Notes under the pieces: model-generated | Databases searched by the model: none | The model's input: the letters and a program-made list of their open reading frames with translations, nothing else | What the model was told of the DNA's origin: nothing | Translations under genes and position numbers: made by a program | Shown: positions 18,969-22,428 of the stretch, piece by piece | How the letters are laid out: each line of letters begins with the position of its first letter | Numbering within the stretch: the first letter of the stretch is position 1 | Assembly (NCBI GenBank): GCA_005116815.1 | Contig: SWDR01000003.1 | Location: 147,461 to 180,541 of the forward strand | From: Nitrospira sp. | GTDB taxonomy: Bacteria; Nitrospirota; Nitrospiria; Nitrospirales; Nitrospiraceae | Direction of reading: 5' to 3' | DNA: 33,081 nucleotides

Positions 18969-19850
18969 ATGAATAGACTGTCGTGCGACTCCGTCGGTTC
19001 CCTCGATCAGGATGTGACCGCGAAACAGCTCCAATGGAAGGGTGCCATCCCCTTCCTCACCATCCACCTGATGTGCCTCTGGGTCATTCAGACCGGAGTC
19101 AGCGTGGAGTGGGTCGCGCTGGCCCTGGGAAGCTACTATCTGAGAATGGTCGCCATCACGGCAGGGTATCACCGCTATTTCTCGCACCGCTCCTACAAGA
19201 CCAGCCGGGCCTTCCAGTTTCTCCTGGCATTTTTGGCCATGACCTCTGCACAGAAAGGTGTGCTCTGGTGGGCCTCACACCATCGGCACCACCATAAACA
19301 CTCGGACCGTGCAGAAGATCGCCATTCCCCGTTGCAACGAGGGTTCTGGTATTCCCATGTCGGATGGCTGTTGTCCGACGAATATGTCGAGACCGACTTC
19401 ACGGTCGTGAGGGACTTGGCAAAATATCCTGAACTGCGTTTCCTCAACCGTTTTCACGTCATTCCGCCAACGTTGTACGCGCTGGCGATGTATGCGCTGT
19501 GGGGGTTCCCGGGCCTGGTCTGGGGCTTCTTCGTGTCCACCACCATCCTCTATCATTGCACATTCTTTATCAATTCCCTGACGCACATCGTCGGCCGGGT
19601 TCGATACAACTCCCGCGATGGGAGCAAGAACAGTTTCATCCTGGCGGTGCTCTGCTGTGGAGAAGGCTGGCACAATAACCACCATTACTACCAATCGTCG
19701 GTCAATCAGGGCTGGCTATGGTGGGAAGTGGACTTCTCCTATTACGTCTTGAGAGTCCTCTCCTGGTTCGGGATCGTCTGGGACCTGCGAACGCCGCCGG
19801 CACACATCAAAGCCGCCATCCTCGCGACGGAACATCCCTCCATCTTGTAG
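18969..19850 (+). CDS. Membrane acyl-CoA/acyl-lipid desaturase (delta-9 family)
   Basis: The 293-residue integral membrane di-iron enzyme inserts a cis double bond into a saturated acyl chain. All three histidine boxes are present: HRYFSH (68-73), HRHHH (105-109) and HNNHH (235-239). About four membrane segments alternate with the boxes, as in the stearoyl-CoA desaturase group. It is the first gene of a same-strand group with a Cfa-family enzyme (119 bp later) and a flavoprotein. The desaturated chain is therefore the likely substrate of the next enzyme. The position of the double bond cannot be read from sequence. A 243-bp non-coding region precedes it, with no firm promoter. Confidence 0.93.
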   Translation: MNRLSCDSVGSLDQDVTAKQLQWKGAIPFLTIHLMCLWVIQTGVSVEWVALALGSYYLRMVAITAGYHRYFSHRSYKTSRAFQFLLAFLAMTSAQKGVLWWASHHRHHHKHSDRAEDRHSPLQRGFWYSHVGWLLSDEYVETDFTVVRDLAKYPELRFLNRFHVIPPTLYALAMYALWGFPGLVWGFFVSTTILYHCTFFINSLTHIVGRVRYNSRDGSKNSFILAVLCCGEGWHNNHHYYQSSVNQGWLWWEVDFSYYVLRVLSWFGIVWDLRTPPAHIKAAILATEHPSIL

Positions 19851-19969
19851 CGAGACTCCTCGCGGCAACAACGCCTGTTGTGTCGTCCCCCATCCTGGCC
19901 CATACTACGCACGAGCCGCGATCTGCCCGAATCAACTCACTCACTTGTGGGGGAAAGAGGGTCCACTCC

Positions 19970-21079
19970 ATGAATCGACAGCACGTTGTTCAAGCGTTGC
20001 TCGAGAAAGCCCATGTGCACGTGAATGGGTCTCAACCGGGAGATATCCAGGTACACCACGATCGATTCTACGACCGCATCCTGACCGAAGGTTCGCTGGG
20101 ACTCGGCGAGTCCTACATAGAGGGCTGGTGGGATGCCAACCAGCTCGACGAGTTCTTCTTCAAATTCCACCTGGCCCAGCTCGACAAGGCCGTACGCGAT
20201 AAGCGCCTCATCCTGAACGCCCTCAAAGCTCGTCTGTTCAACATGCAGAATCAGCGGCGCTCAACCAGAGTGGCCCACCAGCACTACGACCTCAGCAACG
20301 AGTTCTATGAACAGATGCTGGGCCCCCACATGCAATATACCTGTGCCTACTGGAGGGGGACGAAGGACCTAGCAGAGGCACAGGAGCACAAGTTAGATCT
20401 CATCTGCCGGAAGCTGCAGCTCAAGAAAGGTGAACGTATCTTAGAGCTGGGATGCGGCTGGGGAGGCTTTGCCCATTTCGCGGCCTCCAACTATGGGTGC
20501 TCGGTCGTCGCCTATAACATTTCCGAGCAGCAAGTCGCCTACGCGCGGCGCTGGTGTGCGGGACTTCCCGTGGACATCAGACTCATGGACTACCGTGAAG
20601 CGACGGGGGAGTTCGACAAGGTTGCCGCCATCGGGATCTGCGAACATGTGGGATATAAAAATTACCGCACCCTCATGGAAGTGGCCCACAGGACCGTCAA
20701 ACCGCATGGCCTATTTTTGCTCCACAGCATCGGAAACAATGCCTCCGTCACCACCGGCGATCCCTGGTTCGACAAATACATCTTCCCAGGCGGCATGCTC
20801 CCCTCCGTCGCGCAGCTGAGCGCCGCAATGGACGGACTCTTCGTCATGGAGGACTGGCATAATTTCGGGCCTGACTATGACCGCACCCTCCTGGCATGGC
20901 AGAGCAATGTCGACGAGCATCGGCGGCAATGGCAATCCACATTCGATGAGCGCTTCTCCCGTATGTGGCGCTACTATCTGCTCTCCCTCGCGGGAGCATT
21001 CCGCGCCAGGACCATCCACCTCTGGCAAATCGTGATGTCGAAGCGCGGGCTGATCGGCGGCTACGAAACCGTGCGGTAA
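19970..21079 (+). CDS. Cfa-family SAM-dependent fatty acid methylating enzyme (cyclopropane synthase or TmsB-like)
   Basis: The 369-residue protein starts MNRQHVVQALLEKAHVHVNG; the frame is open further upstream but without family similarity. The SAM site is LELGCGWGGFAHF (158-170). Residues that bind bicarbonate in E. coli Cfa are all present: Cys125 (YTCAYW), Glu225 (ICEHVG), His252 and Ile254 (LLHSIG), Tyr303 (FGPDYDRTLLAW). It would add a one-carbon unit to the double bond of a phospholipid acyl chain. The chemistry may stop at a cyclopropane, or give a methylene group. The overlapping flavoprotein gene (TAATG junction) favours the second, as in the actinobacterial TmsB/TmsA pair. The desaturase lies upstream. 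Confidence 0.9.
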   Translation: MNRQHVVQALLEKAHVHVNGSQPGDIQVHHDRFYDRILTEGSLGLGESYIEGWWDANQLDEFFFKFHLAQLDKAVRDKRLILNALKARLFNMQNQRRSTRVAHQHYDLSNEFYEQMLGPHMQYTCAYWRGTKDLAEAQEHKLDLICRKLQLKKGERILELGCGWGGFAHFAASNYGCSVVAYNISEQQVAYARRWCAGLPVDIRLMDYREATGEFDKVAAIGICEHVGYKNYRTLMEVAHRTVKPHGLFLLHSIGNNASVTTGDPWFDKYIFPGGMLPSVAQLSAAMDGLFVMEDWHNFGPDYDRTLLAWQSNVDEHRRQWQSTFDERFSRMWRYYLLSLAGAFRARTIHLWQIVMSKRGLIGGYETVR

Positions 21080-22428
21080 TGGCCATGATCTCGCATGAAG
21101 ACCATGTCCGCAAACGGGAGTCGTTGATCAAGACTCTTCGCGCGTCGAACAGGACTGAATCCCTCGCCCTCGAAAAGTCCACATCGAATCTGTTCCGGCA
21201 GCGTACCGCTGAGCCGCGGCACAGGCTGGATCTGCGCCACTTCAATCACGTCATCCATATTGACGAGAAAGAACGCTGCGCAGAAGTCGAAGGCATGACG
21301 ACCTACGAGGACCTCGTCCGTGAAACCCTGCCGTTCCAGCTCATGCCCGCCGTCGTCCCTCAACTGAAATCGATTACCATCGGCGGAGCGACGGCAGGGA
21401 TCGGCATCGAATCCTCCTCGTTCAAGTATGGGTTTGTCCACGAAACGATTCTGGAAATTGACGTGCTCCTGCCCGATGGGACAGTCGCAGTGGCCACCAA
21501 AGACAACGAGCACAGGGATTTGTTCTTCGGCTTCGCTAATTCCTATGGCACGCTGGGCTATGCGCTCACAGTGAAGGTGCAGCTCGTACCTGTCAGAAAA
21601 TTCGTCACACTACGGCACGAGCGCTACTCGAACCTCGACACCTATTTCCAGGCGCTGGGGCGGGCTTGCAAGGACAGGCAAGTTGATTTTGTCGATGGCA
21701 TGCTGTTCGATGAACAGGAGTTCTATATCACGACCGGTACGTTCGTCGACCAAGCCGAATGGCTCAGCGATTACACCGATCGGCACATCTACTATCGATC
21801 GATCCCCCGCAAACCGGTCGACTACCTTACGACGCACGACTATCTCTGGCGATGGGACACCGATTGGTTTTGGTGCTCAAAACATTTCCTCGCACAGCAT
21901 CCGCTCGTGCGCTGGTTATGGGGGAAAAAGCACCTGAACTCCACGACCTATTGGAAACTGCGCAAACGGTTCAATCACTCACGCATCGCGCAGTTCGTGG
22001 CCAGAATCATTACAGGTCGGCAAGAAGCCGTGATTCAGGACGTGGAGATTCCGATTGAGCATGCACCGGCCTTTGCGCGGTTCTTCAATCAAGAGATCGG
22101 GATCAAGCCTGTGTGGGTCTGTCCGGTCGCGGCCTACGATCCGGCGGTTTCATATCCGTTGTATCCCATGAACCAAAAAACACTGTACGTCAACTTCGGG
22201 TTCTGGGACGCAGTCAGAAGCGACCACGAGGAAGGCTACTTCAACAGGAAAATCGAATCCAAGGTTCGCGAATTGGGAGGCAAGAAATCTCTCTACTCAA
22301 ACTCGTTCTATTCGCGTGAAGAATTTTGGCAGTTGTACCACGAACCCACCTACCGCCAGCTCAAAACTCGTTACGATCCAACGGGCAAGCTGAAAGATCT
22401 CTACGAGAAATGCGTCCTCGCGAAGTGA
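21079..22428 (+). CDS. FAD-binding oxidoreductase, DHCR24/TmsA-like
   Basis: The 449-residue flavoprotein starts at an ATG overlapping the Cfa stop (TAATG), so translation is coupled; an ATG at 21085 is an alternative start. The PCMH/FAD_binding_4 domain spans about 55-190, with the motif SITIGGATAGIGIESSSFKY (98-117). This is very close to the GIESSSxKYG motif of sterol reductase DHCR24. No histidine or cysteine for covalent FAD is apparent. TmsA/BfaA enzymes of this group reduce a 10-methylene acyl chain to the 10-methyl form. That role is inferred from the fused-like pairing with a Cfa-family enzyme; another double-bond reduction is possible. Confidence 0.87.
   Translation: MAMISHEDHVRKRESLIKTLRASNRTESLALEKSTSNLFRQRTAEPRHRLDLRHFNHVIHIDEKERCAEVEGMTTYEDLVRETLPFQLMPAVVPQLKSITIGGATAGIGIESSSFKYGFVHETILEIDVLLPDGTVAVATKDNEHRDLFFGFANSYGTLGYALTVKVQLVPVRKFVTLRHERYSNLDTYFQALGRACKDRQVDFVDGMLFDEQEFYITTGTFVDQAEWLSDYTDRHIYYRSIPRKPVDYLTTHDYLWRWDTDWFWCSKHFLAQHPLVRWLWGKKHLNSTTYWKLRKRFNHSRIAQFVARIITGRQEAVIQDVEIPIEHAPAFARFFNQEIGIKPVWVCPVAAYDPAVSYPLYPMNQKTLYVNFGFWDAVRSDHEEGYFNRKIESKVRELGGKKSLYSNSFYSREEFWQLYHEPTYRQLKTRYDPTGKLKDLYEKCVLAK

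Follow-up and report, generated by a model that had tools for sequence, protein, structure and literature searches.

A candidate hybrid operon for methyl-branched fatty acids in Nitrospira-type bacteria joins an Escherichia coli-type Cfa to a BfaA-family reductase

We analysed a 33,081-nucleotide stretch of a Nitrospira sp. draft genome (hereafter, the window) that carries, on its forward strand at positions 18969–22428, genes for a membrane fatty-acid desaturase, a Cfa-family S-adenosylmethionine (SAM)-dependent enzyme and a flavoprotein; gene calls and Pfam matches confirmed the three genes proposed in a first-pass annotation of the same DNA. This cluster probably encodes a two-step pathway of hybrid make-up, leading to a membrane fatty acid with a mid-chain methyl branch. 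A monounsaturated acyl chain would come from the desaturase or from a different desaturase in the cell, an E. coli-type Cfa would methylate that chain to a methylene product, and a BfaA-family flavoprotein, encoded 5 bases downstream, would reduce the methylene group to a saturated methyl branch. We infer the chemistry, substrate, chain length and methyl position of this pathway, and NADPH would be the cofactor by analogy to BfaA. Methylation plus reduction is the best reading of the cluster because the flavoprotein is a BfaA/TmsA-family member whose gene both adjoins that of the SAM enzyme and co-occurs with it. The first-pass annotation had reached a similar scheme with a TmsB-like methyltransferase and 11-methyl-hexadecanoate (11-methyl-16:0) as the product; the methyl-branched chain stands as the best reading, but the Cfa is not TmsB-like and the assignment to 11-methyl-16:0 does not hold for N. 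moscoviensis.

In the bfa pathway, as described in PMC5660069 and PMC7791843, BfaB makes a 10-methylene chain that BfaA reduces with NADPH. The flavoprotein of the window (positions 21079–22428, forward strand, 449 aa), a predicted flavin adenine dinucleotide (FAD)-dependent methylene reductase, has FAD_binding_4 (PF01565) as its sole Pfam match (57 bits; cut-off 26.4), and PF01565 is likewise the single Pfam domain of the flavoprotein from Tsukamurella. The nearest NCBIfam model, DprE1, scored 54 bits, far below its cut-off of 500. The protein is 47% identical, over 449 aligned residues, to the product of the Tsukamurella gene adjoining a BfaB-type methyltransferase, and 43–52% identical to family members of actinobacterial and Variovorax type; 108 of its 449 positions are near-invariant in a 36-row alignment. 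Among 72,556 plasmid-type records, a translated search with the flavoprotein matched eight, six of which cover at least 80% of the query; these six, from Variovorax (two), Prescottella, Tsukamurella, Nocardia and Nonomuraea, are 46–52% identical over 93–98% of its length. The Tsukamurella flavoprotein gene has genes for RecR, YbaB, an amidase, an SRPBCC/cyclase protein, a SAM methyltransferase and DNA polymerase III as neighbours, and these agree with the genes named in the legend to the published figure on bfaAB neighbourhoods; it is this neighbourhood, as given in the legend, together with family membership that ties the protein to the published BfaA itself. From these comparisons we place the flavoprotein in the BfaA/TmsA reductase family, the type to which it had first been assigned.

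Relatives of the flavoprotein are sparsely distributed. At E values of 1e-30 or better, we found it in 16 of 296 sampled genomes from the phylum of an Actinobacteria-labelled metagenome-assembled genome (MAG), and in one of 398 genomes sampled from the phylum to which a Haliea MAG belongs. The IMG/VR database held a single relative, in a BfaA/BfaB-type locus (L245), and no relative of the window Cfa. A plasmid of Prescottella sp. (L075) has two copies of the flavoprotein and methyltransferase pair in opposite orientations, with frames broken in places.

The flavoprotein gene is consistently coupled to a methyltransferase gene. A CMAS-family methyltransferase adjoins it in all 42 readable loci (19 Nitrospira-type and 23 others), a count that leaves aside the other half of a split gene (L035) and a remnant (L040). 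The neighbour is BfaB-type in actinobacterial-type loci (56–77% identity to Tsukamurella BfaB), a distant CMAS enzyme in two Variovorax records and one genome from the phylum of the Haliea MAG, and an E. coli-type Cfa in every one of the 19 Nitrospira-type loci. Among 25 genomes of the same genus as that of the window, the flavoprotein (67–90% identity) and the Cfa (75% or more) occur in an identical set of 12, including two (G002 and G010) in which the genes are truncated or divided at contig ends or between frames, and the best Cfa match in the other 13 is 40% identity or less. Apart from a remnant in one genome (G015), neither gene was found alone in any of the 25. No flavoprotein orthologue was detected in 16 genomes from other families of the order. 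In the genus of N. moscoviensis, six of 59 sampled genomes have the flavoprotein, and all six have it adjoining this type of Cfa. Pairwise distances for the Cfa agree with those for the flavoprotein (r 0.93, 16 rows) and the desaturase (r 0.94, 14 rows), which fits co-inheritance but also plain vertical descent. We conclude, from the BfaA-family assignment of the flavoprotein, the E. coli-type assignment of the SAM enzyme and their presence in the identical 12 genomes, that the two genes form what is by sequence a hybrid operon of an E. coli-type Cfa with a BfaA-family reductase.

The second half of this pairing was not as first proposed. The first-pass annotation had likened the SAM enzyme (positions 19970–21079, forward strand, 369 aa; PF02353), a predicted acyl-chain methyltransferase, to TmsB/BfaB. 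Against NCBIfam PRK11705, the equivalog model for E. coli Cfa, the enzyme scored 546 bits, and a second cluster Cfa scored 535, both above the cut-off of 400; below it fell BfaB (237 bits), a Variovorax enzyme (L074; 232), a tmpB-like enzyme (307) and two N. moscoviensis enzymes (238 and 250). The window Cfa is 49% identical to E. coli K-12 Cfa, and 34–39% identical to Tsukamurella BfaB over about 266–283 residues. An 87-row tree, from which six columns of interest were left out, unites the 17 cluster Cfas in a single clade (support 100) and places them with 35 E. coli-type enzymes in a group of 52 rows (support 99), from which the 18 BfaB rows stand apart (support 100); these are quick trees with Shimodaira–Hasegawa-like approximate likelihood ratio support, and some of their branches are long. 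Forcing the cluster Cfas and BfaB into one clade cost 77.5 log-likelihood units in a 33-row comparison, and the approximately unbiased test rejected that arrangement (p-AU 0.000123). Together with the trees, this rules out the SAM enzyme as a TmsB/BfaB orthologue. Because it is nested inside E. coli-type Cfa, it is no relative of TmsB/BfaB beyond the superfamily, and we conclude that its sequence is that of an E. coli-type Cfa.

All bicarbonate-binding residues are present, as had been noted from the sequence alone. The site, which we take to be made up of E. coli C139, E239, H266, I268 and Y317, corresponds to C125, E225, H252, I254 and Y303 of the window Cfa, the first being the last residue of the motif LGPHMQYTC (residues 117–125; positions 20318–20344, forward strand). 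All five residues are also found in all 17 actinobacterial-type BfaB rows of the alignment and in the E. coli-type rows. Because they are common to both, they do not discriminate between cyclopropane and methylene chemistry, and we discarded them as a sign of the latter.

The desaturase (positions 18969–19850, forward strand, 293 aa) matches PF00487 and has all three expected histidine boxes, HRYFSH at residue 68, HHRHHH at 104 and HNNHH at 235 (near positions 19170, 19278 and 19671, respectively). Its gene accompanies those for the Cfa and the flavoprotein in 17 of the 19 Nitrospira-type loci. Orthologues (at least 74% identity) are present in 19 of 38 genomes tested, and 23 of the 38, N. moscoviensis among them, have a relative at about 50% identity. 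Within the 25 same-genus genomes, 14 have an orthologue: the 12 with the cluster and two small genomes, G015 and G020. In G015 (L040:6584–7724) the desaturase is in place, the Cfa has been lost and all that is left of the flavoprotein is a remnant of ~100 C-terminal residues; in G020 (L213:6821–7693) the desaturase is in place and both other genes are gone. These two genomes may share one loss event.

Three same-genus loci (64–76% identity) have the desaturase–Cfa–flavoprotein trio without the flanking genes seen in the window. Given that the block recurs in other genomes, three times without those neighbours, the arrangement is more than chance. The stop codon of the Cfa gene and an ATG of the flavoprotein gene overlap as TAATG, which is true of the window but not a general feature, being found in only five of 17 junctions compared (the window included). 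The next in-frame ATG, at 21085 and 5 bases past the Cfa stop, is kept in 17 of 17. This difference in conservation makes it more likely that the flavoprotein starts at 21085, giving 447 aa, than at the ATG that overlaps the Cfa stop.

We considered whether the product is specifically 11-methyl-16:0, a special case of the proposed pathway in which the methyl group would be placed on the proximal carbon of 16:1 cis-11. Nitrospira lineages have both 11-methyl-16:0 and 16:1 cis-11 as marker lipids (PMC3660363), and UfaM, which converts cis-vaccenate to 11Me-12t-18:1, provides a precedent for methylating a cis-11 chain at C11 (PMC7380195). However, BfaB and TmpB between them are described as taking chains unsaturated at 9, 10 or 11 (PMC7791843), so the methyl position cannot be read from sequence. 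The species distribution also speaks against this product. Table 3 of PMC3660363 gives 11-methyl-16:0 as more than 20% of fatty acids in N. moscoviensis, Ca. N. bockiana and N. calida, and names it as a marker for neither Ca. N. defluvii nor N. marina; Table 1 of the same source gives 0.8% for N. marina. N. moscoviensis is also the species named in PMC5516240 as that in which 11-methyl-16:0 was identified, and it has none of the three orthologues. We therefore regard 11-methyl-16:0 as an unlikely product of the cluster, with Ca. N. bockiana and N. calida among the lineages in which the link could hold.

The genome of N. moscoviensis NSP M-1, which we located with a 16S probe, is complete (4,589,485 bases). 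It gave no match to the flavoprotein, and the search method is sound since six other genomes of the genus did give matches. An E. coli-type Cfa and an orthologous desaturase are likewise missing from it, the closest desaturase being the relative of 50% identity. Given the absence of all three genes from a complete genome, the cluster, judged by gene content, cannot be the source of 11-methyl-16:0 in this one producing species, and other genes must make it. The genome leaves a short list for that role: three strong CMAS-family matches (>100 bits), two of them beside a desaturase. All three fall below the PRK11705 cut-off (84–250 bits), and two are placed elsewhere in the tree; the one without a desaturase beside it is a 436-aa enzyme (L139). 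One run (L138:7674–11029, reverse strand) comprises a PF00487 desaturase of 354 aa, which is of another type than that of the window, a 301-aa CMAS-family methyltransferase and a 432-aa Cfa-like enzyme, and is a better candidate gene set for 11-methyl-16:0 in this species; no reductase is apparent beside it, a statement confined to the locus, as no genome-wide reductase search was made. The flavoprotein is also absent from a MAG named N. defluvii NOB1, which represents one species and may be another strain than the lipid-profiled Ca. N. defluvii.

Alternatively, the Cfa could be an ordinary cyclopropane synthase, with the flavoprotein acting separately, for example by modifying the cyclopropane product or a different lipid. 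The tree placement, the equivalog match and the intact bicarbonate site are all consistent with this, and in the passages of PMC5660069 and PMC7791843 that describe its activity, BfaA is tested only with BfaB products. However, this would leave unexplained why a CMAS enzyme adjoins the flavoprotein family in every readable locus, and why the Cfa occurs among the 25 same-genus genomes only together with the flavoprotein. Moreover, six positions that are invariant in the first nine E. coli-type rows are changed in all 17 cluster Cfas, although some of these also vary in a second set. Weak evidence against a plain cyclopropane synthase comes from lipid profiles: cyclopropane acid appears in two of seven columns (3.1% and 0.6%), for marine sublineage IV Nitrospira, in PMC3660363, the cultures not being known carriers of the cluster. 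Taken together, these observations make a plain cyclopropane synthase quite improbable.

We also compared residues between methyltransferases that adjoin a BfaA-type or tmpA-like flavoprotein, which we refer to as linked, and unlinked ones. G118, T124 and N183 of the window Cfa correspond to D132, S138 and T197 of E. coli Cfa, whose numbering we use below. Position 138, beside the bicarbonate cysteine, is Thr in 40 of 40 linked enzymes and four of 47 unlinked enzymes. Gly132, in the final count, occurs in 33/40 linked and 7/47 unlinked enzymes, and Thr138 with Gly132 in 33/40 (18 BfaB and 15 Nitrospira) and 0/47, respectively. Asn197 is present in 22/40 linked enzymes, comprising all Nitrospira, Variovorax-type and tmpB-like rows and no BfaB, and in 0/47 unlinked enzymes. 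Compared with the 35 E. coli-type rows, all 17 cluster Cfas have both T197N and S234A (0/35) and Thr138 (4/35). Unlinked enzymes that lie near other oxidoreductases (from Streptomyces, Leptolyngbya, N. defluvii and contig C21 of the window's own genome) have Ser138 and Thr197. In mycobacterial CmaA1, the residues equivalent to positions 138 and 197 presumably contact SAM. Thr also occupies the 138 position in the UmaA chain of structure 7l9u; 10-methylstearate synthesis by UmaA is reported in vitro, but none on expression in E. coli (PMC5660069). The alignment counts exclude, for very long branches, the 301-aa N. moscoviensis enzyme and an enzyme from the window's own genome (L027:6312–7391), both of which were included in an earlier tree; they also exclude the frame-broken Prescottella copies, a Cfa split over two frames (L034), a flavoprotein ended by a contig end (L036) and two over-long frames (L189 and L191).

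Several points weigh against the two-step pathway or weaken its support. By family and tree, the Cfa would count as a plain cyclopropane synthase, and the adjacent desaturase is missing in two of the 19 Nitrospira-type loci. Two tmpB-like rows, recognised by their geranylgeranyl-reductase-like neighbour, were labelled linked after their residues had been seen (without them, Thr138 is found in 38/38 and Asn197 in 20/38), and for most other unlinked rows the check covered BfaA-type neighbours alone. Gly132 had separated the first set completely on the unlinked side (37/42 linked and 0/30 unlinked, among 72 distinct sequences fitting a search pattern), but seven of 27 unlinked rows in the second set also have it, which weakens Gly132 alone as a signature. 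Finally, the residue pattern amounts to three or four independent linked lineages, and an independent-pairs test on four lineages cannot reach 0.05; the pattern is accordingly a lead and not proof. We regard Thr138, Asn197 and the combination of Thr138 with Gly132 as suggestive marks of reductase-linked enzymes.

It is a very remote prospect that the end product is a methylated chain that stays unsaturated or is oxidised further, of the UfaM or furan-acid kind, with the flavoprotein acting as a dehydrogenase: a SAM methyltransferase and a flavoprotein do make 11Me-10t,12t-18:2 in Rhodobacter (PMC7380195), but the Rhodobacter UfaD is described there as related to phytoene dehydrogenases/desaturases, a distinction drawn from that description, whereas the window flavoprotein has FAD_binding_4 as its only Pfam domain and BfaA as its relatives.

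If the cluster does encode methylation followed by reduction, its Cfa may have a separate origin as a methylene synthase. We give somewhat less than even chances to a scenario in which, once paired with a BfaA-family reductase, an E. coli-type cyclopropane synthase of Nitrospira-type bacteria became a methylene synthase, independently of BfaB and TmpB, by a few substitutions near the bicarbonate and SAM sites (S138T, T197N and usually D132G). This would constitute a third, convergent route.

The draft genome that carries the window is 1.97 Mb in 81 contigs and 72% complete. A ribosome-biogenesis GTPase gene lies upstream of the trio and an RNase R-like gene downstream; neither has an evident link to lipids. 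A syntenic block is common to this genome and the N. defluvii MAG, with up to 77% identity. Orthologues in the genus of N. moscoviensis are 74–78% identical, and others are present in a MAG named Nitrospiraceae (L092). Together these matches mark the organism as a Nitrospira relative. Contig C21 of the same draft genome (L027) encodes an amine-oxidase-like flavoprotein, a DUF1365 protein and two further CMAS enzymes, with a weak lipocalin-like match and a photolyase-like gene (recognised by eye only); most of this locus is common to the N. defluvii MAG. On a Streptomyces virginiae plasmid (L197:1428–4125), a desaturase, a protein of the F420H2-quinone-reductase family and an E. coli-type Cfa form one tight run, possibly another desaturase–reductase–Cfa combination; in the 87-row tree no other row lies closer to the Nitrospira Cfas than this Cfa (support 94, on a long branch), but it has Ser138 and Thr197.

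In our searches of the open-licence literature, titles and abstract openings yielded nothing linking Nitrospira with a BfaA, 10-methylstearic or tuberculostearic pathway; the same searches yielded nothing on Nitrospira together with cyclopropane fatty acid and desaturase. If the proposed pathway is correct, it would be a third gene recipe for methyl-branched lipids beside bfa and tmp, built on a textbook cyclopropane synthase, and would allow a natural comparison of the features that direct such an enzyme to a cyclopropane ring or to a methyl branch. The recipe is found in some Nitrospira-type bacteria and is not that of N. moscoviensis, the species known for such a lipid.

The cluster can be compared with four known or newly recognised arrangements. 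It resembles bfaAB (formerly tms, the actinobacterial 10-methylstearate pathway; PMC5660069, PMC7791843) in having a reductase of the same family (43–50% identity) and an adjacent CMAS-family methyltransferase, with genes that overlap or nearly touch. It differs in that its methyltransferase is on another branch (34–39% identity to Tsukamurella BfaB, with a single clade rejected), in that the flavoprotein gene comes second in the window cluster but first in all actinobacterial-type loci examined, and in having a desaturase upstream and belonging to another phylum. Variovorax (L073 and L074) and the genome from the phylum of the Haliea MAG (L176) share the order of methyltransferase then flavoprotein, opposite to that of actinobacterial-type loci, as well as Thr138 and Asn197, and their flavoproteins are the nearest relatives of the Nitrospira flavoprotein in a midpoint-rooted tree; their methyltransferase, however, is a distant CMAS enzyme and not E. 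coli-type (232 bits for L074 on PRK11705, cut-off 400), such that these loci represent a third pairing.

The tmpBA system (10-methylpalmitate; PMC7791843) is represented in our data by two tmpBA-like loci in the phylum of the Haliea MAG (L246:3034–5495 and L247:4160–6612), in which a Cfa-like methyltransferase gene overlaps that of a geranylgeranyl-reductase-like flavoprotein, an arrangement of the type described for tmpBA. Like the Nitrospira cluster, these loci have the methyltransferase followed by the flavoprotein, and their methyltransferases have Thr138 and Asn197. In contrast, their flavoprotein resembles the geranylgeranyl-reductase family (156 bits, just under a cut-off of 158.8) and not BfaA, and the methyltransferase is on another branch, as judged on the tmpBA-like loci rather than on the published TmpB and TmpA sequences. 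E. coli-type Cfa (PRK11705) itself is matched in family, length, bicarbonate residues, identity to the K-12 enzyme and an above-cut-off score, whereas the Nitrospira-type Cfa adjoins a BfaA-family reductase in 19 of 19 loci and has T197N, S234A and Thr138. It is the use of an E. coli-type Cfa, as assigned from sequence, that differs from both the actinobacterial bfa and the published tmp pathways.

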